Shown piece by piece: positions 50,812 through 63,907 of a stretch of DNA of 64,000 bases; the first letter of the stretch is position 1; each line of letters begins with the position of its first letter. The notes beneath the pieces were generated by a model, which did no database searches, had not been told where the DNA came from, and worked only from the letters and a program-made list of their open reading frames with translations. Source of the stretch: Catellatospora vulcania (GTDB lineage: Bacteria > Actinomycetota > Actinomycetes > Mycobacteriales > Micromonosporaceae); contig NZ_ML769301.1 in assembly GCF_009720385.1 (NCBI RefSeq), positions 708,911 to 772,910 on the forward strand, written 5' to 3'. A program made the translations under genes and the position numbers.

Positions 50812-50947
50812 GCCCTATCTTCGCCCACGCGCGTGGAATTCGGCCGCCGCGTCAGACTTGGGTGCCCCGCCGTTCCTGGTTGCGCCTATTCCTGTTCGTG
50901 TTGGTGGACGGGTGGCGGCCCTCTGACCTACGAGTACTCTCGTGCGG

Positions 50948-51583
50948 ATGATCTCGCATGAAGTGACAGACGTACTCCGCAGCTGGGCAAAGGGTTTGGC
51001 CGCAGTCAGGCGCAACTCCGTGCCCATCGAGACCGCCTGGGGCCTGCGGATCGACGAGGTCCGGCCGAAGACCCGTGCCCGCTGTCTGGTGTTTCGCGAC
51101 GACCTCGACGCGGTGCGCAGCGCGGCGACGTCCGCGACCGCTCCGCACGGTGTGATCATCGTTGTCACCGCCGAGGACGCGGTAGCCGCCCTGCTCGGGC
51201 CGGCCTGGCAAAGCACGCCGCCAGAGCCGATCATGACGACCACGCTGCGGCAGATCCCGTCGAGCGTGCCCGCCGGCTACGACCTCAGCACCACGACCGA
51301 CGCGGGCGTCATCAACGTGCGCGTACATTTCGAGGGCGAGGTCGCCGCGGCGGGATACACCGCCGTGGTGGACGGTGTCGCCGTCGTGGATCGTGTCGCC
51401 ACCGAGCCCGCACATCAGCGCCGCGGCTTGGGCACAGCGGTGATGAACGCACTGACGGTGGCAGCCAAAGACCAAGGGGCTGTGACCGCAGTACTCCACG
51501 GGACAGAGGAAGGACGTGCGCTCTACGAGGGTCTCGGCTGGCAATTGCGCTCAAAGATCACGAGCTTCACTCACGCGGCATGA
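50948..51583 (+). CDS. GNAT acetyltransferase
   Basis: The 211-residue protein has a C-terminal GNAT domain: VVDRVATEPAHQRRGLGTAVMNAL and a C-terminal ALYEGLGWQLRS. The N-terminal half shows no known domain. The ATG at 50948 lies seven bases after TACTCT (50935-50940), a -10 box, so a leaderless message starting here is more likely than the GTG at 50942. Its role relative to the peptide system downstream is unknown. Confidence 0.8.
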   Translation: MISHEVTDVLRSWAKGLAAVRRNSVPIETAWGLRIDEVRPKTRARCLVFRDDLDAVRSAATSATAPHGVIIVVTAEDAVAALLGPAWQSTPPEPIMTTTLRQIPSSVPAGYDLSTTTDAGVINVRVHFEGEVAAAGYTAVVDGVAVVDRVATEPAHQRRGLGTAVMNALTVAAKDQGAVTAVLHGTEEGRALYEGLGWQLRSKITSFTHAA

Positions 51584-51672
51584 TCTTGACGACTTTGGCG
51601 GCGGATGCGACACGGCCAGTACTCGGGCGTCGAACTCGCCGGACTTCGCAACGGCTCATGGGTATCCGGGCA
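51584..51672. other. Short intergenic spacer
   Basis: About 90 bases without an open frame that I can support; it separates the GNAT stop from the terminator of the Cys-rich peptide gene. Confidence 0.4.
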
Positions 51673-51706
51673 GCGTGGTGGGGCGGAGTGCACGCCGCCA
51701 CCACGC
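51673..51706 (-). terminator. Terminator of the Cys-rich peptide gene
   Basis: GCGTGGTGG (51673-51681) pairs with CCACCACGC (51698-51706) and four more pairs extend the stem after one bulged base, around a 7-base loop. It lies ten bases after the peptide stop codon. Confidence 0.7.
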
Positions 51707-51716
51707 CGTGCCCCGG

Positions 51717-51929
51717 TCAGTTGCAGTTGTAGTAGTTGCTGGCGCAGCCGTTGTAGACCTTGTAGCAGTTGTACCCGTCGTAGGCGTAGCAGTAGCGGTA
51801 ACCCTGCGTCCGTGTCCCGCTGCAGTAGCAGCCGGTCACGTAGCAGGGCGGGCATGCTGCTGCCGCGTCGGCCTTCGGCACGACGAAGGCGGTCATGCGG
51901 TCACTGATACGCTCGATCAGCTTGATCAT
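51717..51929 (-). CDS. Precursor of a Cys/Tyr-rich secreted peptide
   Basis: The 70-residue product splits into a leader and a core. Leader residues 1-25 start MIKLIERISDRM and end in VVPKADAAAA; an A-x-A cut there would fit a signal peptidase. The core (residues 26-70) has eight Cys (26, 29, 34, 36, 47, 55, 62, 69) and eleven Tyr in 45 residues, with Asn/Gly between them. The core contains no His or acidic cluster. AAAGGAG lies five bases before the ATG. A terminator follows. Adjacent genes encode an S26 peptidase, SARP regulators, an ABC exporter and a CxxC thioredoxin. I infer a ribosomally made, disulfide-folded peptide. Lipobox-like AAAC (residue 26) means a lipid anchor is an alternative. 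Confidence 0.8.
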   Translation of the reverse strand: MIKLIERISDRMTAFVVPKADAAAACPPCYVTGCYCSGTRTQGYRYCYAYDGYNCYKVYNGCASNYYNCN

Positions 51930-52007
51930 TGAAGCTCCTTTCGTACGGGTAGCTGACGCTAACGCCGCGGCGTACACGAACCGGCCGATCGCGCTACGCA
52001 TCCAGGG

Positions 52008-52040
52008 ATGTATCTGTTTTGTATGTCGCGGCGGCATGCT
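52008..52040 (+). promoter_or_regulatory. SARP box and -10 of the S26 peptidase gene
   Basis: Heptamers ATGTATC (52008-52014) and TTGTATG (52019-52025) repeat with an 11-base period, the layout of SARP activator sites. Nine bases later comes the -10 CATGCT (52035-52040), and six bases after that the ATG of the peptidase. The same geometry occurs at 57807-57850. Confidence 0.75.
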
Positions 52041-52046
52041 GGGACG

Positions 52047-52568
52047 ATGTGGACCATCGCCGGTGCCGGACTGTTGATCGTCACCGTCTGCGTCGCGCTG
52101 GTGATCCGGCGGATGCGCGGGCGGCTGACCGTGGTGACGGTCCACGGCCAGAGCATGACTCCGGCGCTGCACCCGGGCGACCGCGTGCTCGTCCGCCGCA
52201 CTGCCCTTGACGGCGTACGCAACGGTGACGTGGTCATGGTGGCGCGCCCGTCGCTGGCGGAGAGCGCCACCTGGACCGTGCCGGGCGTGGCGAAGTCCGC
52301 CGTCGTCGCCGATGACGCCTGGGCCGGCGTGACCGGCGACTGGCTGATCAAGCGGGTGGTCGCCGTCCCGGGCGACGAGGTGCCGCGGGACACGGTGGAG
52401 GCGCTGCGCGACACCGCCGAGCAGGCGGTGCCCCCCGGCCGGTTCGTCGCGGTCGGCGACAACGCCGAGCTCAGCTTCGACTCCCGGACCTGCGGTTACT
52501 TCACCGATGAGCAGCTGTGGGGCCTGGTGGTCAAGCGGCTGGAACCTGTCGTGCCACCGCACGCCTAG
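52047..52568 (+). CDS. S26-family signal peptidase
   Basis: The 173-residue protein has one N-terminal membrane helix (residues 3-20) and an S26 catalytic domain: HGQSMTPALHPGD with nucleophile Ser36 and DWLIKRVVAVPGDEVP with general base Lys102, then VAVGDNAELSFDSR. It is the short (SodX/plasmid-type) class of type I signal peptidase. The ATG at 52047 is chosen because it sits six bases after the -10 box, giving a leaderless message; earlier in-frame ATGs (52008, 52023) lie inside the SARP box. I infer that it removes the leader of the divergent Cys-rich peptide. The SARP gene follows 32 bp later. Confidence 0.88.
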   Translation: MWTIAGAGLLIVTVCVALVIRRMRGRLTVVTVHGQSMTPALHPGDRVLVRRTALDGVRNGDVVMVARPSLAESATWTVPGVAKSAVVADDAWAGVTGDWLIKRVVAVPGDEVPRDTVEALRDTAEQAVPPGRFVAVGDNAELSFDSRTCGYFTDEQLWGLVVKRLEPVVPPHA

Positions 52569-52600
52569 TATCGACATTCGCGACGTATCGGGAGGCGTGA

Positions 52601-55402
52601 ATGGGTTGGGAGTTCCGCCTGCTCGGCCCGTTGGAACTCAGGCGGGACGGGGTCGCCGTCGCCGCGGGCTCCGTCAAACAGCGGATGCTGCTCGCCTCGC
52701 TGCTGCTCGACGTCAACCGAGTCGTCTCCGTGAACCGGCTCATCGCGGCCCTGTGGGAACGTGATCCGCCCACCTCGGCCATCGCGAACATCCGCACCTA
52801 TGCCTCGCAGCTGCGCCTGACGCTGACCGACGGCAACGGTGACAGCCGGCTCGCCGGTCGCCCGCCCGGCTATCTGCTGACGGCGGCCGACGATGAGTTC
52901 GACCTCGCTGTCTTCACCCAGCGCGCGGCGGCCGGGCGGGCCGCGATGAGCCGTGGTGAGCTGCGGCAGGCGGTCAGCGCCTTCCGGGAGGCGCTGGCGC
53001 GATGGCGGGGGCCGGCGGGCGAGGACACCTGCCAGTCCGGCCTGCTCGCGACGCGCCTCGCCGGGCTGGACCAGCAGCGGCTCACCGTCATCGAGGAGCT
53101 GGTCGCGGCCCGGCAGCAGCTTGGCGAGAACGCGCAGCTCATCCCGGAACTGCGGCAGCTCACTTACGAGCACCCGCTCCGGGAGCAGCTCTGGCAGCAG
53201 CTCATCGTCTCCCTCTACCGCACCGGCGACATCGCGGGCGCCCTGGACGCCTATGAGCAGGCCCGCTCCGCGCTCGTCCGCGATCTCGGCGTCGACCCCG
53301 GTACGGAGCTGTCCGCCCTCTACCAGGCTGTGCTCAGCCGCGATCCGGCGCTCCTGGCGGAGTCGAGGGCCGCCGACGGGACGGAGATCCGCCCGCGGGA
53401 GCTCCCCTCTGACGTGGCGCGCCTCGTGGGGCGGGACCGAGAGGTCGCGATGGCGACGGGCGCGCTGGCGGACGTGCCGACCATCGCCTTCTACGGCACC
53501 GGCGGCGTCGGCAAGTCGGCGCTCGCGGTCCATGTCGCCCACCAGATCGCGCCGTCGTTTCCCGACGGCCAGATCTATGTGGACCTGGGCGGACCCGGCG
53601 GGCAGCCCCAGGCTCCGGTGGACGTGCTGCGACGGGTCATCCGGACGCTCGGCGTGCCGGCCGATCAGATGCCGCAGAGCGAGGCGGAGGCGTCGGCGCG
53701 CTACCGGTCCTTCGTGGTAGGGCGCCAGATGATCGTGCTGCTGGACAACGCGACCAGCGCGGAGCAGGTCCGCCCGCTGCTGGTCGGCGGGGGCGGCACG
53801 GTCGTCATGATCACCAGTCGGCGGATGCTCGCGACGATCGACCGCGCCGTCCACATCGAGGTGAACCGCCTCACCGAGCAGGACGCGGCGCAGCTACTGG
53901 CGGCGGTGTGCGGACCCGAGCGGATCGCGGCCGAGCCGGCAGAGACCGCGCGCCTGGCGGTGCTCTGCGACCGGTCGCCGCTCGCCCTGCGCATCGCCGG
54001 CGCCCGTCTGGCCGCCCGGCCGCTGTGGAGCATCGGCGAACTGGTCCGGCAGCTCTCCGACGAGCGGACCCGGCTCGATACGCTCGCATTCGGCGATCTG
54101 GCCGTCCGCTCCAGCGTCGAGCTGAGCTTCCGCGCGGTCGGCGGCGACGCCGCGGCCCTGCTCGGGCTGCTCGGCCTGGTCCGCATCGACGAGTTCACGC
54201 TCAACGCGGTCGCCGCCCTGGGCGACCTGCCATCCGCTCAGGCGGCGCCGGCCTTCGACCAGCTGATCGAGCAGCGCCTGGTCGAGCAGACCGGGCCCGG
54301 CCGGTTCCGGATCGGCGACCTGGTCCGGCTGTTCGCCGGCGACCTCACCGTCGCGGGCCGTCCCGAGGCGCTGCACCGCCTGCTGTGCTTCTATCTCTGC
54401 ACGGCGCGCCGGGCCTGGGAACTGGTGCACCCCGCGTTCCGGCCGGCCCGCGACGACGGGTTCTTCGAGACCGTCCCACGGCTGGAGTTCGCCGACGCGT
54501 TAGCGGCGACGGCGTGGCTGGATCAGGAGCGGGCCAACCTGCTGACGCTGGCGCGCCAGGTGGCCGACGAGCGCGCCGCCGTCGCCCGCTTCGTGCCGCT
54601 CCTGCTCTCCTGCCTGCACCAGTACCTCGCGGCCGACGACAGCTGGGACGACCTGGACGAGCTGGCCCAGCTGTCGCGGGCCGTCGCCGTGCGTGATGCC
54701 GCCTGGCACGCCGAGGCGGAGGCGATGGTGTGCCTCGCCGCCGTCTGCCGGGCCCGCGGCACGTTCGGCCAGGCCGTCTCCTATCTGGAGCGGGCGGGCG
54801 AGCTGCGGCGCCGCTTCGGCGACGAGCACGGCGTCGCCGACTGCCTGACGGCGCTGGGTCAGACGCTGGTCCGCTCAGGTGACCTCGGGACGGGACTGGC
54901 CCGGCTCAAGGACGGCGCGGCGCTCTACGACCGGCACGGCCTGCGGCTGGCGGCGAGCCAGGCGCTGCACGAGGCCGGGGAGGTCCTGTGCCGCCTGGGT
55001 CGTTACGCCGAGGCGGAGACTTCGTTCGAGCAGGCGCTGGCGGTCCGCCAGGCCGAGCGGGACCTCACCGGCGAGGCGATCACCCTGGCCGCGATGGGCA
55101 TCACCGACTGCCTGCGCGGCAGCGATCTGCGCGCCGTGGGCAGGCTGACCGATGCGCTCGCCCGGTGCCGGGCCACCTCGGCGCACCGCCACAGCTGGCA
55201 GGCACTGATGTGGCGCGCCGCGGCGTACCAGCGGCTGGGGCAGAGCAGCGAGATGGCGGCCGATCTGCGGTCGGCCTGGGACCTGTCGCGGTCGCACGGG
55301 GACGTGAACCGCGAACGCTTCGCCACCGTGCTGCTGGAGAAGCTCAGCCGGGGCGACGAGGGCGACCTGAAGGACCGCATGGCCGCCGAGTTCCTGTTCT
55401 AA
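52601..55402 (+). CDS. AfsR/SARP-family regulator (BTAD, NB-ARC, TPR)
   Basis: The 933-residue protein has three parts. An OmpR-type winged helix and BTAD domain cover residues 1-245 (FRLLGPLELRRDGVAV, DVNRVVSVNRLIAALW, VRDLGVDPGTELSALY). An NB-ARC/STAND ATPase has Walker A GTGGVGKSA near 298 and MIVLLDNA. The rest is TPR-like repeats (YAEAETSFEQALAVR). SARPs activate secondary-metabolite promoters by binding 11-base-periodic heptamers, and such heptamers lie upstream of the peptidase and thioredoxin genes. GGGAGG precedes the ATG. It is probably cotranscribed with the peptidase gene, giving positive feedback. Its stop overlaps the converging ABC gene by 4 bases. Confidence 0.92.
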   Translation: MGWEFRLLGPLELRRDGVAVAAGSVKQRMLLASLLLDVNRVVSVNRLIAALWERDPPTSAIANIRTYASQLRLTLTDGNGDSRLAGRPPGYLLTAADDEFDLAVFTQRAAAGRAAMSRGELRQAVSAFREALARWRGPAGEDTCQSGLLATRLAGLDQQRLTVIEELVAARQQLGENAQLIPELRQLTYEHPLREQLWQQLIVSLYRTGDIAGALDAYEQARSALVRDLGVDPGTELSALYQAVLSRDPALLAESRAADGTEIRPRELPSDVARLVGRDREVAMATGALADVPTIAFYGTGGVGKSALAVHVAHQIAPSFPDGQIYVDLGGPGGQPQAPVDVLRRVIRTLGVPADQMPQSEAEASARYRSFVVGRQMIVLLDNATSAEQVRPLLVGGGGTVVMITSRRMLATIDRAVHIEVNRLTEQDAAQLLAAVCGPERIAAEPAETARLAVLCDRSPLALRIAGARLAARPLWSIGELVRQLSDERTRLDTLAFGDLAVRSSVELSFRAVGGDAAALLGLLGLVRIDEFTLNAVAALGDLPSAQAAPAFDQLIEQRLVEQTGPGRFRIGDLVRLFAGDLTVAGRPEALHRLLCFYLCTARRAWELVHPAFRPARDDGFFETVPRLEFADALAATAWLDQERANLLTLARQVADERAAVARFVPLLLSCLHQYLAADDSWDDLDELAQLSRAVAVRDAAWHAEAEAMVCLAAVCRARGTFGQAVSYLERAGELRRRFGDEHGVADCLTALGQTLVRSGDLGTGLARLKDGAALYDRHGLRLAASQALHEAGEVLCRLGRYAEAETSFEQALAVRQAERDLTGEAITLAAMGITDCLRGSDLRAVGRLTDALARCRATSAHRHSWQALMWRAAAYQRLGQSSEMAADLRSAWDLSRSHGDVNRERFATVLLEKLSRGDEGDLKDRMAAEFLF

Positions 55403-57258
55403 TCGCCGCGGCCCGCCGGCTCCGACAGCTGGTAGCCGGCGGCCTGCAACTGGAACAGCTGCGCGTATGCGCCGTCGGCGGCCATCAGCGTCACGTGGTC
55501 CCCCTGCTCGGCGACGACCCCGTCGGCGAGCACGACGATGCTGTCGGCGTCGCGCAGCGAGCCGAGCCGGTGGGAGATGAGCAGGCTCGTCCGGTCCGCC
55601 CGGTGCTCCCGCAGCCGCTGGTGCACCTCGAACTCGGCCTGGGCGTCGAGGCCCGCGCTCGGCTCGTCGAGGATCATCAGGTCCCGCTTGTCCCGCAGGA
55701 ACGCGCGGGCCAGCGCCAGCCGTTGCCACTGCCCGCCGGAGAAGCGGACTCCGGTCTCTGGATCGCCCTGGTCGGACTCGCCGAAGAACATCCGGCTCAG
55801 CATCGTGTCGTACCCTCGGGGCAGCGCCTCGACCGCGGCGTGGACGCCCGCCCGCTGCGCCGCGGCGACCAGCACCGGCCGGTCGTCGATGCTCGCGATG
55901 TCGCCGAGCCCGATGTTGTCGGCGGCGGTGAGGTCATAGCTCATGTAGTCCTGGAACACGGCGCCGATGCGCGCGCGCAACTCCGTGATCTCCACGTCGC
56001 GCAGGTCCACGCCGTCCCATGCGATGGTGCCACGGTCGGGGTCGTAGAACCGGCAGACCAGCTTCACCAGGGTGCTCTTGCCGGCGCCGTTGAGGCCGAC
56101 GAGCCCGACCGTCGTGCCGTGCGGAATGAACAGGTTCACCCCGCGCAGCACCCACGGGTGCTCGTCGCTGTAGCGGAACCACACGTCGCGCAGCTCGATG
56201 CCGCGCCGCAGCGCGGGCAGCGCGCGAGGGTCGGCACTCAGCGGCAGGTCCGGCTCGGCGTTGACGACCATCGCGTAGTGGTGGAAGACGGTGAGCTGCT
56301 GGTGCGTGTGGGCCACCGACACGATCAGCTGCTGCATCGCGCCCAGCACGCCCGGCACGACGACGAGGAACATGGCGACGTCGCCGACCGTGAGCGCCCC
56401 GGCGTGCGCCTGCCGAGCGGCCCAGACCAGGCCCGCCCCGGCGACGATCGCGCTCAGCGCGGCGAGCCCGCCCTGGGTGGTCAGCTCGCGGCGGTCCATC
56501 CGGCGCTTGGCCCCGAACACCTCCCGCAGTTCGGCCAGCATCCGCCCGCGCAGGAAGCCGCCGGTGCCGAACAACCGGATCTCCTTGGCGGCGTCGACGC
56601 TGCCGAGGAGGTTGCGGTAGAAGAACTCGCGCCGCTCGGTCGGGCCCAGGTCCCAGATCATCGCCGCCCGCCGCCGGGAGAGCTGCAGCTCCAGGAGGAG
56701 TGTCGGCACCGCCGTCGCGAGGACCGCCAGCGTCATGACCGGGCTGATCACGGCGAGCGAGCCGAGGAAGCCGAGCAGTGTCAGCACACCCCGGGTCACG
56801 CCGAGGGAGCCGTCGACCACCTGAGCCGGTGCGGCGGCGCCCTGCTGCGCCAGCCGGAGCCGGTCCAGGAAGGCGGGGTTCTCGAAGTAGGCCAGCCCGC
56901 TGAACCGTTCCACCGCGCGGTAGAGCTCATCCTGCGCCAGCAGGGCGACGCGCTGGTCGAGCTGCGTCCGCAGGTACTGGGTCAGCTGGGGAAGCGCCGC
57001 GGTGGCGAGGCCCGCGACCGCGAGGCCGCAGGCGACCGCCGTGACCGCGGCCACGGTCCCGCCGGTGGTGATCAGATCGAGCAGCATCTTGGTAAGCCAG
57101 GCGCCGGCCACCGGCACCGCCGCCCCGGCGAGGGTGCCGACGGCGTACGAGGCGGTGGTGGCGGCGGCCCCTCGGCGCGCGATGACGGCCGCGAGCCTGC
57201 CCGCGCGCAGCAGCTCCCGGCGGCTGGGCGGGGCGGCGGCGGTGAACTCGGTCGTCAT
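55399..57258 (-). CDS. ABC exporter, fused membrane and ATPase domains
   Basis: The 619-residue half-transporter has a six-helix ABC-B membrane domain (about residues 20-330) and an ATPase domain: Walker A GLNGAGKST near 388, signature VRFSGGQWQRLALARA near 503 and Walker B DLMILDEPSAGLDA near 523. It lacks the N-terminal C39 peptidase of bacteriocin exporters, so leader removal must be done by another enzyme. The adjacent S26 peptidase fits. It overlaps the thioredoxin gene by 4 bases. Its probable cargo is the Cys-rich peptide. Its upstream gene carries the SARP box. Confidence 0.93.
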   Translation of the reverse strand: MTTEFTAAAPPSRRELLRAGRLAAVIARRGAAATTASYAVGTLAGAAVPVAGAWLTKMLLDLITTGGTVAAVTAVACGLAVAGLATAALPQLTQYLRTQLDQRVALLAQDELYRAVERFSGLAYFENPAFLDRLRLAQQGAAAPAQVVDGSLGVTRGVLTLLGFLGSLAVISPVMTLAVLATAVPTLLLELQLSRRRAAMIWDLGPTERREFFYRNLLGSVDAAKEIRLFGTGGFLRGRMLAELREVFGAKRRMDRRELTTQGGLAALSAIVAGAGLVWAARQAHAGALTVGDVAMFLVVVPGVLGAMQQLIVSVAHTHQQLTVFHHYAMVVNAEPDLPLSADPRALPALRRGIELRDVWFRYSDEHPWVLRGVNLFIPHGTTVGLVGLNGAGKSTLVKLVCRFYDPDRGTIAWDGVDLRDVEITELRARIGAVFQDYMSYDLTAADNIGLGDIASIDDRPVLVAAAQRAGVHAAVEALPRGYDTMLSRMFFGESDQGDPETGVRFSGGQWQRLALARAFLRDKRDLMILDEPSAGLDAQAEFEVHQRLREHRADRTSLLISHRLGSLRDADSIVVLADGVVAEQGDHVTLMAADGAYAQLFQLQAAGYQLSEPAGRGD

Positions 57259-57800
57259 ACGGCGGCGGGCCGGGGCAGACCGGAGAGCATGGAGCCGCTC
57301 GCCACCATCGTCCCGTCGGCGGAGACGAGGCCGACCGCGGGGAAGCCCTTCACGCCGAAGGCGGCGGCGACCGGTCCCTCGTCCTTCTCCAGCACCACCC
57401 GTGCCACGTCGGACAGCTGCTCGACGGTGGCGGTGGCCTCGGCGGCCACATCGGCGACCACGACGGCGAATACCCGGTCCCGGCCACCGAGCTCAGCGGC
57501 GTAGGCGACGAACTCGGGCAGGCGCTCGCGGCAGGGCGCGCAGCCGGGCGAGAAGAAGCCGACGAGTGTCCCGTCGGCGAACGAGGCGGTGGAGACCGCC
57601 TCGCCGGCGGTGGTGACGGCGGAGAAGGAGCCGATCTGCGCGCCCGCCGGGAGGATCAAATCCGTGGCCGTAGGCCCGGTCGGCACCTTGGACAGCAGCG
57701 CGGCGTGCTCGCGCAGGCGGCGGATCATGCCGAAGGCCAGGAGCAGATTGAGCAGGCAGATGGTGGTGACGATGGCGAGCGCGATCCATAGGTATGCCAT
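57255..57800 (-). CDS. Membrane-tethered TlpA-like thioredoxin
   Basis: The 181-residue protein has one N-terminal membrane helix (residues 4-24) and a thioredoxin domain with the redox pair C87-A-P-C90 (SPGCAPCRERLPEF). A cis-Pro segment (GFPAVGLV) follows. The domain should lie outside and reduce, oxidise or shuffle disulfides. Its neighbours suggest that it forms or corrects the four disulfides possible in the peptide. It resembles MauD/TlpA partners of MauE/DoxX membrane proteins, but no MauE/DoxX gene is in the window. The ATG at 57800 follows the TAGCCT -10 by six bases, so it is leaderless. Confidence 0.88.
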   Translation of the reverse strand: MAYLWIALAIVTTICLLNLLLAFGMIRRLREHAALLSKVPTGPTATDLILPAGAQIGSFSAVTTAGEAVSTASFADGTLVGFFSPGCAPCRERLPEFVAYAAELGGRDRVFAVVVADVAAEATATVEQLSDVARVVLEKDEGPVAAAFGVKGFPAVGLVSADGTMVASGSMLSGLPRPAAV

Positions 57801-57806
57801 CCGCGC

Positions 57807-57850
57807 AGGCTAGCCAGCACGGATACAAGCGACATACAAACCTGATCCAG
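57807..57850 (-). promoter_or_regulatory. SARP box and -10 of the thioredoxin/ABC operon
   Basis: Reading leftward, CTGGATC (57850-57844), TTGTATG (57839-57833) and TTGTATC (57828-57822) repeat with an 11-base period. The -10 TAGCCT (57812-57807) follows after nine bases and the ATG after six more. TTGTATG with the following TCGC is shared with the box at 52019-52029. Confidence 0.75.
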
Positions 57851-57924
57851 ATGTGACGATGTTCGATACCACATTGGACATCCTGGCCCGGTAGGATTCA
57901 GGTGAGTTGATCAATCGAGGGTTG

Positions 57925-60900
57925 GTGCTGAGGTTGTCCCTGCGGTTTCGGTGTCTCGGCTCGCTGGAGATCCGCTGCGCGAACGAGTGGCAAGCGGTCG
58001 CCGGGGGCAAGGCGCGAACGCTGCTCGCCATCCTCATGATCCATGCCGGCGAGCCGGTCCCGGTCGGCCGCCTCATCGACGAGCTCTGGTGCGGTGCTCC
58101 GCCGGCCTCGGCGCGGTCACTGCTGCGCGGCTATGTCCTGTCGCTGCGGCGAGCCATCGGCCAGGACGGCACGATAGTCCTCACCGCCGAGGCCAACGCC
58201 TACTGCCTCCAGGTGGGCCGGGAGTCCGTGGACGCGTACCGGTTCGAGCAGCTCGCCGCGGACGGCCAGGGGGCGCTGCGAGCCGGTGACGTCGACCGGG
58301 CGGCCCGCCTCCTCGGTGCGGCCCTGTCCCTGTGGTGCGGCCCGGCCTTCGCCGCGGTGGCCACCTCGCCGCTGATCGCTGCCTACGCGTCCCGCCTGCA
58401 CGAGCTGCACCTCGCCGCGCTGGAGGCACGGATGGAGGCGGACCTGCTCGCCGGGCGGGCCGAGCAGCTCCTCGGCCCGCTGCGCCAGCTCATGCAGGAG
58501 CATCCCGCACGGGAGCGGATCATCGCCCTGTGGATGCGGGCGCTCAACGCCCAGGGGCGGCGGGCAGAGGCACTGAACGCCTATGTGGATGCACGGCGCA
58601 GGCTGGCCGAGGAGTTCGGCATCGAACCAGGACCGCACCTTCGGCAGGCCCATCGGGACATCCTCGCCGAGGACGGCGTCGACGATCCGCCCGCCTTGGA
58701 TCCGCCGGCGGCCCAGGTGGCCGCCGGCCGAAAGCAGCCCGGTGTGACCCGCGACGCGCCGTGGCAGGCGCCGGCCTCCATCGGCGATTTCACCGGACGC
58801 GACGCGGAGCTCGCCGGCTGCCTGAAGGTTCTCGACCAGGGACCGGGCACGGCGATGCACCTGGTCGCGATCTCCGGCCGGGCCGGAGTGGGCAAGACCA
58901 CGCTCATCACGCGCCTCGCCCACCTGCTGCGCGACACCTACCCGGACGGCCAGCTCTACGCCGACCTGCACGGCGACAGCGCGGAGCCGACCGCACCGGG
59001 CGAGGTGCTCGGACGCTTCCTGCGGGCGCTGGGCGTCCAGGGATCGGAGATGCCGGAGACCACGGACGAACGCTCGGCCCTGCTGCGCAGCCGGCTGGCC
59101 GGGAAAAGGCTGCTGATGCTGCTCGACAACGCCGCCGGCGAGCAGCAGGTCCGGCCACTGCTGCCCGGCGCCAGCCCCAGCGCCGCCGTCGTGGTGAGCC
59201 GCCGACGGCTCTCCGCGCTGGATGTCAGCCACTTCGTCGACCTGGATGTCTTCAGCCCGGCCTGCGCACTGAGCCTGCTGGAGCAGATAGCCGGCACCGA
59301 ACGAGTCATCGCCGAGCCGGCCGCCGCCAGCGCGCTGACCGCCCTGTGCGGCCACCTTCCGCTCGCGGTACGCATCGCCGCCGCCCGCGTCTCGGCGTCG
59401 CCCGGAACGCCGATGTCGTGGCTCGTCCAGCAGCTCATGGACGAGCGAAGCAGGCTCGACGAGCTCAGCATCGGCGACCTCGACGTGCGCACCACCATCG
59501 CCGCCGGATACCAGGGCCTGTCCACCGTGGAGCAACGGACGCTGTGCCGGCTGGCCCTGCTCGACGCCGCCGACTTCCCGGCCTGGGCAGTGGCCGCGGC
59601 CGCCGATCTGACGACGGCTGAGAACCGCCAGGTGCTGCGCGCTTTGGTCGACCGGCGCCTGCTCGACGAGGTCCGCGTCGACCAGGTCGGCCAGCTGCGC
59701 TACGGACTCCACTGCCTGGTCCGGATCTTCGCGCGAGAACCGGCCCGGCAGGAACCACCGGCAGCACAGCTCGCGGTGATCGAGCGTGCGCTGGACAGCT
59801 GGCTGACCCTGGCCCAGACCGCCAGCGCAGCCCTGGCGGCCGCGACCTTGGCCGACATCCGGCCGCCCCGCCCGAAAGCTGCCCGCGGCGACGGGGTCGA
59901 AGCCGCCGCGGGCTCCCCATCGGCGTGGTTCGAGGCGGAACGCGCGGCCATCGCCGCGGCCGTGGCCCAGGCGGCAAGACTCGGCCGAGCCGACCTGTCG
60001 TGGGGACTCGCCGCGGCGACCCACAGCTTCTACGAGCTGCGTGACCTCTTCGACGACGGCCAACACGCCCACGAGACCGCACTCGCCGCCTGCCGTGCCG
60101 CCGGCGACCAGCTCGGCGAGGCGGTCATGCTGCGCGACCTCGCGGACCTCTACAGTTCCAAACCCGGCTCCGACATCGGGCGCAAGCTCGAGCTCGCCGC
60201 CGCCGCACTGCGACTCTTCCAGCAGGTACGCCACACCCAGGGCGAAGCCGACGCGCTGTACCTGTGCGCGACGGTGCACCGGACGCGAGGCGACCACGCC
60301 GAGGCGGTCGCAAGCCTGGAGGAGAGCCTCCAGGCCTGCCGCTCCGCGGACTATCACCTCGGCGAGCTGCACGTCTGGCAGCTACTCGGCATCGTGCGCC
60401 GGCAGGAGGGACGCAACGATGAGGCGCTCACCTACGCGACCCGGGCCCTGACCATCGCGCGGGACCTGGGCAGCTCCCGGGACCAGAGCGTCGCGCTGGG
60501 CCTGATCGGCATCATCCGGCGCGACCAGGGCGATCCCCACCAGGCCGAGCAGGCGCTGGTGGCGGCGATTGCCATCGCCGAGGAGTCCGGGGACCCGGTG
60601 CAGCTGGCCTTCCTGCACGGACACCTCGGCGCGCTCTATGTCGCCAGCGGGCACCCAAGGGCGCGGCCGGTCCTCGAACGCGGGCTGGAGCTGAGCAGAG
60701 CGAGCCACTCCGTGTTCGGGCAGGCGCTGGCGCTCAACGCGCTCGGCCGGCTCGATCTCGCCGACGGCGACGCGCCTGCGGCACTGGACCGCCTCGGCAC
60801 CTCGGCACAGCTCTACCGCGAGGCGCAGAACACCTACGCCGAGGCCAAGGCCCTCGCCGTCCTCGCGGAGGCTTATCGTCTGGCCGGCGACCCCGAGCAG

Positions 60901-60996
60901 GCGCGGTCCAGCGCCCGCGCCGCCGTCCTGATCTTCCGGCGGCTGGGCAACGAGACCGAGGCCGTCCAGACGGCGCTGCTCGCGGTTGACCGGTAG
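57925..60996 (+). CDS. Second SARP-type regulator (BTAD, NB-ARC, TPR)
   Basis: The product (about 1023 residues) has the same architecture as the first SARP: winged helix/BTAD (FRCLGSLEIRCANEWQ, FGIEPGPHLRQAHRD), NB-ARC with Walker A GRAGVGKTT near 317 and LLMLLDNAAGEQQVRPLLPG, then many TPR repeats. It diverges from the thioredoxin/ABC operon; the SARP box lies between them. The start is uncertain: GTG 57925 (GAGGG just upstream), TTG 57907 or TTG 57934, which would give the family N-terminus MSLRFRCLG. It may control the operon or respond to a different signal. Confidence 0.88.
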   Translation: MLRLSLRFRCLGSLEIRCANEWQAVAGGKARTLLAILMIHAGEPVPVGRLIDELWCGAPPASARSLLRGYVLSLRRAIGQDGTIVLTAEANAYCLQVGRESVDAYRFEQLAADGQGALRAGDVDRAARLLGAALSLWCGPAFAAVATSPLIAAYASRLHELHLAALEARMEADLLAGRAEQLLGPLRQLMQEHPARERIIALWMRALNAQGRRAEALNAYVDARRRLAEEFGIEPGPHLRQAHRDILAEDGVDDPPALDPPAAQVAAGRKQPGVTRDAPWQAPASIGDFTGRDAELAGCLKVLDQGPGTAMHLVAISGRAGVGKTTLITRLAHLLRDTYPDGQLYADLHGDSAEPTAPGEVLGRFLRALGVQGSEMPETTDERSALLRSRLAGKRLLMLLDNAAGEQQVRPLLPGASPSAAVVVSRRRLSALDVSHFVDLDVFSPACALSLLEQIAGTERVIAEPAAASALTALCGHLPLAVRIAAARVSASPGTPMSWLVQQLMDERSRLDELSIGDLDVRTTIAAGYQGLSTVEQRTLCRLALLDAADFPAWAVAAAADLTTAENRQVLRALVDRRLLDEVRVDQVGQLRYGLHCLVRIFAREPARQEPPAAQLAVIERALDSWLTLAQTASAALAAATLADIRPPRPKAARGDGVEAAAGSPSAWFEAERAAIAAAVAQAARLGRADLSWGLAAATHSFYELRDLFDDGQHAHETALAACRAAGDQLGEAVMLRDLADLYSSKPGSDIGRKLELAAAALRLFQQVRHTQGEADALYLCATVHRTRGDHAEAVASLEESLQACRSADYHLGELHVWQLLGIVRRQEGRNDEALTYATRALTIARDLGSSRDQSVALGLIGIIRRDQGDPHQAEQALVAAIAIAEESGDPVQLAFLHGHLGALYVASGHPRARPVLERGLELSRASHSVFGQALALNALGRLDLADGDAPAALDRLGTSAQLYREAQNTYAEAKALAVLAEAYRLAGDPEQARSSARAAVLIFRRLGNETEAVQTALLAVDR

Positions 60997-61906: not shown

Positions 61907-62160
61907 CCGGCCTGGCCGAGAGTTTGATTGAGGTCAGCCGCAAGCTTGGTCACGAATGCGTCGGAATTCTGTGACGTTCCCCGGACGACCTGGCTCATCC
62001 CGAGCGTTCGGCCGCGCCTTCCTGGTCGCCTTCCATCATCAGTATCCGGGCCAGATTCTCTGTGTACCGGGCGATGCTGAAGCTGTTGCCGAAGGTGAGG
62101 CAGCCGCGCATCACTCTTGGCAGCAGTGTGCGCGCCCCATCAACCGCCCCGGCTTCCATC
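61825..62160 (-). pseudogene. C-terminal remnant of a TPR/LuxR-type regulator
   Basis: Reverse frame 62159 to about 62000 reads LLPRVMRGCLTFGNSFSIAR, then ENLARILMMEGDQEGAAERSG and a stop. This is the typical last TPR repeat of LuxR/AfsR-type STAND regulators (LLRESL..., ENLA..., GDxExAARL). After a shift, a second frame reads AFVTKLAADLNQTLGQAGYG and EAFRRGSALP, the typical last helix (LRxxLGxxAFxxAWxxGRALP). The upstream part is absent. I infer a decayed, truncated regulator gene. Confidence 0.55.
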
Positions 62161-62422
62161 CTGCGCCTACCGCGAAGCCTTGCCTGATGCGTCGCCGCCC
62201 TCGATATCGCCGCCTCGGCCCCGCATGCGGGAGAGCCGGCGGGGCCGGCGGAGCGGGCGGGACGATGTTCGACTATGTACGTTCGTGGGCCTTTGCGTAC
62301 CGAGTATGGCGCGCGGATTCAGCAAAGTTAACCCTGTTGTCACGCAGCTGAAATCCAGCGCTCCCTCTGCCCGCCCGGCCGAGGGACCTGCCGTCGGCTT
62401 CGACAGAGGGAAGTTGATCCGC
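62161..62422. other. Upstream region of the GH43 gene
   Basis: About 260 bases that I see no gene in. It should hold the GH43 promoter; AGTTAACC near 62327 and TTGTCACG near 62337 stand out but I cannot assign -35 and -10. Confidence 0.35.
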
Positions 62423-63907
62423 GTGAAGGAGAACCTCCGCCCCCGGCCCCCCATCCGTCGCCTCGTCCGGTCGATCCGGATGGCCGCAGCCGCAGCCGCA
62501 GCTGCAGTCCTGTTCGCCGGCGCCGCCGTCGGCTTCGCGGTGTCGCCGGCCAGCGCGGCCCCCGTGGACATCGCCAACGGCACCCAGTTCCGGGACAGCA
62601 GCGGGAACGTGCTGCACGCCCACGGTGGCGGCGTGCTGCAGGTGAGCGGCTACTACTACTGGTTCGGCGAGAACCGCAACGCCGACAACACCTTCCGTGC
62701 CGTCTCGGTATACCGGTCCACGGACCTCAAGAACTGGGAGTTCCGCAACAACGTCCTCACGCAGTCGTCGCACGCCGAACTCAACGTCTCGAACATCGAG
62801 CGGCCGAAAGTCATCTACAACAGCTCGACGGGCCGCTTCGTCATGTGGATGCACAAGGAGAACGGGTCGAACTACAGCGAGGCGCGCGCCGCCGTCGCGT
62901 CGTCGGCGACCGTGGACGGCAACTACACCTACCACGGCAGCTTCCGCCCGCTCGGCCAGCACATGTCGCGAGACATCACGCTCTACAACGACAACGGCAC
63001 CGCGTACATGATCTCCGCGGCGGACGAGAACTACGACCTGCACATCTACCGGCTGACCTCGGACTACCTGAACGTCAGCACGCTGGTCGGCAACTTCTGG
63101 AACGACGCGCACCGCGAGGCCCCGGCCATGTTCAAGCGTGGCAGCGTCTATTTCCTGCTCACCTCGGGCGCGACCGGCTGGAGCCCGAACCAGGCGAAAT
63201 ACGCTACTGCGAGCAGCATCTCCGGTCCGTGGACCGGGTGGACCAACGTCGGCGACGGCACGACGTTCAGCTCCCAGCCGACGTACGTGCTGCCGATCCA
63301 GGGGACATCGGCGACCAGCTACCTGTACATGGGCGACCGCTGGGCCGGCGCCTGGGGCGGCCCGGTGGGCGACTCGCAGTACGTCTGGCTGCCCATCAGC
63401 TTCCCCAGCAGCACCAGCATGAGCCTGACCTGGCACCCGCAGATCACCGTCGACGCCGCCACCGGCACCGTCACCGGCGGCGGATCGGCCCCGACCTACC
63501 GGATCACCGCTCGCCACAGCGGCAGGGTGATGGACGTGGTCTCGTCGTCGACGGCGAACAGCGCCGAGATCAAGCAGTACGCCTGGAACGGGGGAGCCAA
63601 CCAGAAGTGGCAGTTCCAGGACGTCGGGGGCGGCTACTACCGGCTCATGAACGTCAACAGCGGCAAATGTCTGGACGTGGCCGGCAACTCGACGGCCAAC
63701 GGGGCCAACATCATCCAGTACACCTGCGGCAGCGGCACGAACCAGCAGTGGCAGTGGGTGGCCACGGGCAGCTACTTCCAGCTGCGGGCCCGCCACAGCG
63801 GCAAGTGCCTGGACGTCGTGAGCTCGAACACGGCCGACGGCGCCGACATCCAGCAGTACACCTGCGGAAGCGGCACCAACCAGCAGTGGTCGCGCGCCAC
63901 GTCATGA
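62423..63907 (+). CDS. Secreted GH43 galactanase-like enzyme with ricin-type domain
   Basis: The 494-residue protein has a long Sec signal (RSIRMAAAAAAAAVLFAG, likely cut after SASA near residue 47). The GH43 five-bladed propeller follows: GTQFRDSSGNVLHAHGGGVL, YWFGENRNADNTFRAVSVYR, NIERPKVIYN and MWMHKENG, close to exo-beta-1,3-galactanases. A ricin-B/CBM13 domain covers about residues 345-494 with QxW motifs (QKWQFQ, QQWQWV, QQWSRA). It likely attacks arabinogalactan-type plant polysaccharide. GAGGGAAG lies ten bases before the GTG at 62423; the open frame starting at 62117 lacks coding character. Confidence 0.9.
   Translation: MKENLRPRPPIRRLVRSIRMAAAAAAAAVLFAGAAVGFAVSPASAAPVDIANGTQFRDSSGNVLHAHGGGVLQVSGYYYWFGENRNADNTFRAVSVYRSTDLKNWEFRNNVLTQSSHAELNVSNIERPKVIYNSSTGRFVMWMHKENGSNYSEARAAVASSATVDGNYTYHGSFRPLGQHMSRDITLYNDNGTAYMISAADENYDLHIYRLTSDYLNVSTLVGNFWNDAHREAPAMFKRGSVYFLLTSGATGWSPNQAKYATASSISGPWTGWTNVGDGTTFSSQPTYVLPIQGTSATSYLYMGDRWAGAWGGPVGDSQYVWLPISFPSSTSMSLTWHPQITVDAATGTVTGGGSAPTYRITARHSGRVMDVVSSSTANSAEIKQYAWNGGANQKWQFQDVGGGYYRLMNVNSGKCLDVAGNSTANGANIIQYTCGSGTNQQWQWVATGSYFQLRARHSGKCLDVVSSNTADGADIQQYTCGSGTNQQWSRATS

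Follow-up and report, generated by a model that had tools for sequence, protein, structure and literature searches.

The window analyzed here is a stretch of 64,000 nucleotides from Catellatospora vulcania (contig NZ_ML769301.1, positions 708,911 to 772,910). Between positions 51717 and 60996 it carries six genes, encoding a short cysteine-rich precursor peptide, an S26 signal-peptidase-like protease, an ATP-binding cassette (ABC) exporter, a membrane-anchored TlpA-like thioredoxin, and two SARP-type regulators. Comparison of these sequences with their relatives indicates, with a probability of roughly 0.77, that a secreted peptide with all its cysteines in disulfides is produced here through a dedicated post-translational pathway, one found repeatedly in Actinomycetes. 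The cassette belongs to a real, recurring, and apparently uncharacterized actinobacterial system, of which the window holds a MauE-less variant with two SARPs. The initial annotation had read the six genes as one pathway for a cystine- and tyrosine-rich peptide; all six are present where it had placed them, and its interpretation as a whole is partly supported.

Recurrence, leaders, and cores of the precursor family

Relatives of the cassette were found in the GTDB species collection through the N-terminal motif of TlpA, and the best 80 of 118 were compared, with a component scored as present anywhere within its locus. These loci come from Streptomyces, Embleya, Nonomuraea, Thermobifida, Planobispora, Actinomadura, Pseudonocardia, Labedaea, Longispora, Virgisporangium, Dactylosporangium, and others. 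The precursor, gathered by hidden Markov model with filters for length and for at least three cysteines, is present in 77 loci, the ABC exporter in 78, and the S26 protease in 74; a window-like SARP occurs in 35 and is thus not the constant partner it had been taken for. At equal thresholds, the controls gave 3 of 80 for reversed loci and 2 of 108 for segments lying more than 6 kb from TlpA. In the source genome itself, a paralogue on contig C13 is adjoined by S26, ABC, TlpA, and SARP genes. With this paralogue among the same neighbors and the set recurring across the class, the grouping proposed from a single locus exceeds chance.

The association extends to whole genomes. Among 300 genomes of the window's family, profile searches found the precursor in 113 (E<=0.01) and the TlpA family in 125 (E<=1e-15). 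Among the matches listed, 110 genomes carry both, 3 the precursor only, 15 TlpA only, and 172 neither (Fisher 8e-61), the three precursor-only genomes resting on weak matches (E 0.004 to 2e-4). This coupling bears out TlpA as a partner of the precursor. Again among the matches listed, 84 of 150 precursors lie within 8 kb of a TlpA gene, or 78 of 102 once six many-copy genomes are set aside, and 81 of 149 TlpA genes lie within 8 kb of a precursor; per-genome counts of both are lower bounds. At phylum level, a strict TlpA profile (E<=1e-25) matched 2 of 296 genomes, one of them the source genome; beyond its home family, the system thus has a patchy distribution. Searching the DNA with a leader pattern recovered only part of the precursors.

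Structurally, the precursors consist of a shared leader and a variable core. Among the first 17 precursors the leader is common and the cores differ, and mean pairwise identity amounts to 46% for leaders, 36% for cores, and 33% for shuffled cores. Alignment of 81 leaders on a proline yielded the motif L-x2-L-[GSA]-DRLL-x2-[FVL]-VP[KR]-x2-A-x-A, with alanine at +4 from the proline in 100% and at +6 in 99%; the search pattern itself demanded A-x-A two to five residues after the proline, so that the independent part of this result is the fixed spacing. A-x-A stands ahead of the core in 81 of 82 non-redundant precursors. The middle of the leader carries D in 73% and R in 74%, and the helical moment exceeds the shuffle mean in 81 of 81 leaders, indicating amphipathic character. 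The best 9-mer of the leader has a median Kyte-Doolittle hydropathy of 1.32 (1.17 in the window leader), compared with 2.7 and 3.2 at the N-termini of TlpA and S26; in this composition test, with 2 of 81 leaders above 2.2, a Sec-like hydrophobic stretch was not seen. In locus L238 (G130:C4:317200-326000), four short precursors are clustered whose leaders lack A-x-A and keep a D-R-[LM]-L stretch; they may be cut at a variant site or form a subfamily of their own.

All 8 cysteines of the window precursor lie after P-x3-A-x-A, and none of the 81 aligned leaders contains cysteine. The number of cysteines is even in 119 of 126 pooled non-redundant cores (p=2e-27; pool thinned to simple alignment scores below 0.5), compared with 56-72 of 126 for eleven other residues. 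For the 81 non-redundant motif-bearing cores the count is 76 against a shuffle average of 40.5, with 8 cysteines in 35 cores, 6 in 28, 10 in 12, 7 in 5, and 12 in 1; in four precursor-rich genomes pooled, 61 of 63 cores are even. Precursors left out of these counts for missing A-x-A (1 of 82 and 8 of 75) are even in 8 of 9 cases. Since full pairing requires an even number, the cysteines appear to be paired, an interpretation that is statistically well supported by these sequences. Cysteine accounts for 19.4% of pooled core residues, serine for 7.5%, and threonine for 5.7%. The core in the window is as rich in tyrosine as the initial annotation had it (11 of 46 predicted residues), which is not a trait of the family (8.4% of pooled core residues). 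Adjacent cysteines are rarer than in shuffles (9% vs 21% of spacings); 59% of the cores hold at least one CC and 49% a CxC.

The short gene itself is conserved among close relatives. Two genomes of the same genus encode an identical protein and differ from the window by 6 bases each, all silent in G001 and, in G006, 4 silent and 2 within the stop codon; in another genus of the same family (G019), identity is 91%. AAAGGAG precedes the ATG. Across six genomes that were precursor-rich or chosen, Shine-Dalgarno-like sites were found before 46 of 75 precursors, compared with 314 of 3365 control ATGs; 12 of the 75 guessed starts are not start codons, and some starts are therefore wrong. A chance short open reading frame was rejected on the conserved leader, the silent-only changes, and these sites. 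The hairpin behind the gene has a folding energy of -38.3 kcal/mol (z -3.9; 57-nt piece 51660-51716), and both arms are visible by eye in three relatives; scans for T-tail terminators and sigma-70 promoters returned none. The window precursor has no match in Pfam or NCBIfam, neither of which holds a model for any of five precursors tested, and a search against solved structures (PDB) gave nothing convincing (best E 1.9).

The cassette in the window and its partner proteins

The features of the locus are as follows.

51717..51929, minus strand: candidate precursor peptide, 70 amino acids; leader, residues 1-24, MIKLIERISDRMTAFVVPKADAAA; cut predicted after A24; core of 46 amino acids with 8 Cys and 11 Tyr
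51666..51716, minus strand: strong terminator-like hairpin without a T tail, immediately 3' of the precursor stop codon
52008..52568, plus strand: S26 signal-peptidase-like protease, 186 amino acids, candidate leader peptidase; alternative later start at 52047
52601..55402, plus strand: SARP-type regulator, 933 amino acids, with BTAD, NB-ARC, and TPR domains (Pfam/NCBIfam)
55399..57258, minus strand: ABC exporter, 619 amino acids, with transmembrane and nucleotide-binding domains; no match to a C39 peptidase domain
57255..57800, minus strand: membrane-anchored TlpA/ResA-like thioredoxin, 181 amino acids, with CAPC and the family-invariant P154
57907..60996, plus strand: second SARP-type regulator, 1029 amino acids, with BTAD, NB-ARC, and TPR domains; TTG start

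The neighbors described for the precursor are thus present, although not all adjoin it: the precursor and S26 genes diverge, the former on the minus strand, and S26 and one SARP, both on the plus strand, intervene before the ABC and TlpA genes. The latter two share the minus strand, with the ABC start codon and the TlpA stop overlapping (ATGA). The second SARP is retained in the G019 cassette as well. Pfam assigns Peptidase_S26 (PF10502, 8e-21) to the protease, BTAD (PF03704) to both SARPs, ABC_tran (PF00005, 9e-28) to the exporter, and Redoxin/AhpC-TSA to the CAPC protein; a C39 domain is absent among the families listed for the exporter at E<=1. The same scan, covering seven window genes from 50942 to 60996, detected no lanthionine synthetase near the precursor. 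The first of these, a GNAT gene (50942-51580), was left out of the system because the close cassette L062 holds no match to it. The next downstream gene (62117-63907), likewise not counted in the system, has a translation that by eye resembles a secreted glycoside hydrolase carrying ricin-type lectin repeats at its C-terminus.

In the S26 family, the serine and lysine are invariant in 10 of 10 aligned rows, and their boxes align with both catalytic boxes of signal peptidase IB; the window protein scores 74.6 against an NCBIfam signal peptidase I cut-off of 47. The invariant pair, together with A-x-A in 81 of 82 precursors, favors the earlier suggestion that a separate S26 enzyme replaces the missing C39 domain. 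TlpA carries an N-terminal membrane anchor (hydropathy 2.7), and its CxxC and P154 are invariant in 12 of 12 rows. In a sequence search of solved structures StoA ranks first, ResA also matches near the top, and DsbF is weaker.

Many relatives carry a further partner, a MauE-like protein (PF07291, 82 bits for the one member tested), which occurs in at least 36 of the 80 loci, with CxCFG in 36 of 36, and sits between the precursor and TlpA in many Streptomyces loci. As given in the decRiPPter text, MauE has been suggested to help disulfide formation in methylamine dehydrogenase (PMC7794033). The sister cassette on contig C13 includes a MauE-like gene (L061, 12557-13153), which might serve the MauE-less cassette of the window.

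Clustering of 697 neighboring genes within 6.5 kb of TlpA in the 80 loci recovered the ABC exporter in 72 loci, TlpA in 30, S26 in 22, and the precursors, with counts running low where the simple gene caller picked another frame. The same clustering yielded a regulator group in 38 loci (SARP-labelled in 32, with at least one other member of LuxR type) and antisense frames, over S26 by eye, in 12 loci. The remaining families occur in at most 7 of 80 loci, namely short-chain dehydrogenase (7), helix-turn-helix (7), MFS transporter (5), P450 (5), AraC (5), and rarer ones. No lanthionine, YcaO, or radical-SAM family was recognized among the families present in at least 3 of 80 loci within this distance (by eye; 10 representatives by Pfam), and such chemistry was rejected on this basis. 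Together with the cysteine parity, the lack of a modifying enzyme common to the loci upholds disulfides as the modification originally proposed. A system-wide modifying enzyme is thus probably absent, and a P450 or dehydrogenase might act at a few loci. At L127, L145, L146, L181, and L184, a member of the P450 family is encoded no more than 6.5 kb from TlpA and is a possible tailoring enzyme there.

Scattered precursors and known peptide systems

Among 20 chosen precursor-centered stretches of about 19.5 kb, 11 contain TlpA and a related ABC exporter, with S26 present as well in 9 of the 11, and one other contains S26 alone. In three genomes, precursors are numerous and mostly lie apart from their presumed machinery. 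Within stretches reaching mostly about 4 kb to each side, relatives of TlpA, S26, and ABC are missing near 31 of 33 precursors in G017 (27 stretches), 19 of 22 in G035 (20 stretches), and 12 of 14 in G130 (10 stretches), one of these 14 precursors being doubtful (L240, score 12). At L211, L218, L244, and L245, where a precursor was expected, none passed the filter. Each of these genomes has, among the matches listed, 2-3 TlpA and 2-3 S26 family members, which in G017 lie apart from each other; G122 has at least 19 precursor and at least 11 TlpA matches. The expectation that precursor homologues always stand beside the machinery therefore fails for most G017 precursors, although those genomes encode TlpA and S26 elsewhere. 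Homologues without exporter, peptidase, and thioredoxin, which the initial annotation had named as grounds for refutation, are found at the level of the locus and not at that of the genome.

The simplest reading suggested by these sequences is that a few central lines mature precursors in trans. For the class, we give an even chance to a broader version, in which one or few exporter/S26/TlpA(/MauE) lines would mature, in trans, dozens of hypervariable, cysteine-paired peptides from scattered single genes, perhaps co-regulated via an upstream palindrome, forming a combinatorial secreted arsenal without a cyclizing enzyme. At L070 in G017, four different precursors stand in tandem with diverged cores, which suggests duplication and diversification. 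The palindrome GTCCAC-N-GTGGAC (up to 2 mismatches) was observed 33-224 bp upstream of G017 and G035 precursors (L070, L194, L073, L216, L217, and others), in several loci near ATATGCG. It precedes 14 of 33 precursors in G017 and 7 of 22 in G035, vs 9.4% and 6.9% of random windows, and is not clearly enriched in G130 (2/14), G049 (1/3), or G014 (0/2). Discovered and tested on the same data, it is only a lead to a possible shared regulon.

Prochlorosins offer a parallel, as one lanthionine enzyme serves many dispersed precursors with a conserved leader and hypervariable cores. The present system likewise has hypervariable cores, a conserved leader, and many precursors distant from the machinery; in contrast, no lanthionine enzyme was recognized here. 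Pediocin-like bacteriocins are exported by ABC proteins and aided in disulfide formation by a dedicated thioredoxin-like protein; their double-glycine leader is removed by a C39 domain that forms part of the exporter. The window system instead has an A-x-A leader and a separate S26 protease. A C39-exported class II bacteriocin was rejected, since the exporter has no C39 match (E<=1) and the leader ends in P-x3-A-x-A. The gene set is consistent with leader removal and enzymatic core modification of the kind seen in ribosomally synthesized and post-translationally modified peptides (RiPPs).

The closest record is that of decRiPPter, which in 2020 described, in a short paragraph among 42 candidate families, three Streptomyces candidate RiPP families with mauE, one also with mauD (PMC7794033). 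Their precursors have at least 8 Cys each, Streptomyces viridosporus T7A is among the genomes, and the filter also required a transporter, a peptidase, and a regulator (PMC7794033). S26, signal peptidase, thioredoxin, and SARP are not mentioned in the main text of that paper, and its passages on these families present no leader motif, cysteine-parity test, or scattered precursors (PMC7794033). The window precursor, with 8 Cys, shares the cysteine number of these families, whereas its cassette lacks MauE. Because a Streptomyces viridosporus locus (L173, strain NRRL 2414, 4.4 kb) holds a precursor with the family leader, MauE, TlpA, and ABC, the decRiPPter mauE families, as far as that text describes them, very probably belong to the same system. 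The initial view of an unrecorded combination is thus qualified by these MauE-containing, cysteine-rich clusters and stands insofar as no characterized product or named class was found in the open-licence literature, with most subscription journals outside this scope.

The TMcins, as described in the text available, work comparably with unrelated parts: they also combine a leader protease, a thiol oxidoreductase, and an ABC exporter for a disulfide-containing RiPP (PMC13252029). They differ in their S2P-clan protease, DsbA-like CPHC protein, separate ABC subunits, and membrane-integrated precursor with one disulfide, in a staphylococcal model (PMC13252029). In place of an S2P/DUF3267 protease and a membrane-spanning precursor, the window has an S26 protease and, for the leader tested, a best 9-mer hydropathy of 1.17.

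Proposed maturation and alternative explanations

We postulate the following course for the peptide. The SARPs would probably turn the locus on, and the precursor would be held in the cytosol until the ABC exporter recognizes its amphipathic leader helix. A natural reading of the gene set is that the exporter moves the whole precursor, with cleavage occurring outside, where S26 would cut after the conserved P-x3-A-x-A at the outer membrane face. The membrane-tethered TlpA may then oxidize or shuffle the 8 cysteines, whose parity points to pairing, into four disulfides, and would be reoxidized by MauE in many relatives and, in the window strain, by the MauE of the C13 sister cassette or another oxidant. 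The mature peptide of about 46 residues might most likely be a bacteriocin-like antimicrobial, suggested by the hypervariable core behind a conserved leader. This last step is the weakest, its biological activity a guess, and the order of the enzymes is inferred.

Several observations weigh against this explanation. Eight of the 20 precursor-centered stretches, 7 of them from G017 and G035, hold no TlpA, S26, or related exporter, and linkage at the locus is therefore not obligatory. Odd cysteine counts occur in 7 of 126 cores, and the AlphaFold model of the precursor is unusably weak (pLDDT 48). A CxCFG motif scan of the entire window found no MauE. StoA and ResA are reductases, and by likeness to them TlpA could act as a reductase or isomerase. 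The low hydropathy of the leader, apparently too low for a typical Sec signal, is judged on composition alone, which limits the case for export outside the Sec pathway. Lastly, P450 genes lie near 5 of 80 cassettes and short-chain dehydrogenases near 7 of 80; because of these genes, we shifted a very small part of our confidence (0.01) from the disulfide-bonded product to an enzyme-modified one.

Four other explanations were weighed. We hold it unlikely that the peptide leaves by the Sec pathway, with S26 in the usual role of a signal peptidase and the ABC protein moving something else or conferring immunity. A-x-A ahead of the core does resemble a type I signal peptidase site, and S26 clears the signal peptidase I cut-off (74.6 vs 47); however, the leaders lack the hydrophobic stretch (2 of 81 above 2.2) and carry D and R at mid-leader in 73% and 74%, and 78 of 80 loci include the ABC gene. 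A Sec signal was rejected on this composition-based hydropathy. It is more improbable still that the cores bind metal in the manner of metallothionein or ferredoxin, with TlpA keeping them reduced. Such a role would suit the cysteine content of 19.4%, the CxC and CC motifs in 49% and 59% of cores, and the resemblance of TlpA to StoA/ResA, yet metal binding, like thioether chemistry, would not demand the even counts that pairing predicts and that 119 of 126 cores show. Adjacent cysteines are, moreover, depleted (9% of spacings vs 21% in shuffles), and MauE, for which the decRiPPter text gives a suggested disulfide role (PMC7794033), occurs at 36 of 80 loci.

Little credence attaches to a lanthipeptide, or a peptide modified by some other enzyme, with the enzyme gene located elsewhere in the genome or near some loci. 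Precursors can indeed sit far from a cassette, the cores contain serine (7.5%) and threonine (5.7%), and the P450 and dehydrogenase families lie near the few cassettes already counted; nevertheless, no lanthionine, YcaO, or radical-SAM family was recognized among those in at least 3 of 80 loci, and thioether rings would not force even cysteine counts. Somewhat more room is left for a signalling peptide, matured as in the disulfide explanation and sensed by the TPR-containing SARPs, in place of an antimicrobial. Two such regulators flank the window cassette, and related SARPs occur at 35 of 80 loci. We regard this as a minority possibility, as window-like SARPs were not detected in the other 45 loci, some of them incomplete, and 14-33 different precursors per genome in three genomes suit an arsenal better.

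With a disulfide-bonded product as the preferred explanation, the leader motif and the TlpA/S26/ABC set provide a sequence handle on a large group of disulfide-rich peptides that bacteria probably secrete, and the even-cysteine rule a simple filter to find more of them. Most known disulfide-rich scaffolds come from animals and plants. If the explanation is true, bacteria would offer a compact and useful line for folding a variety of cores, and the extracellular folding of such peptides would become testable.

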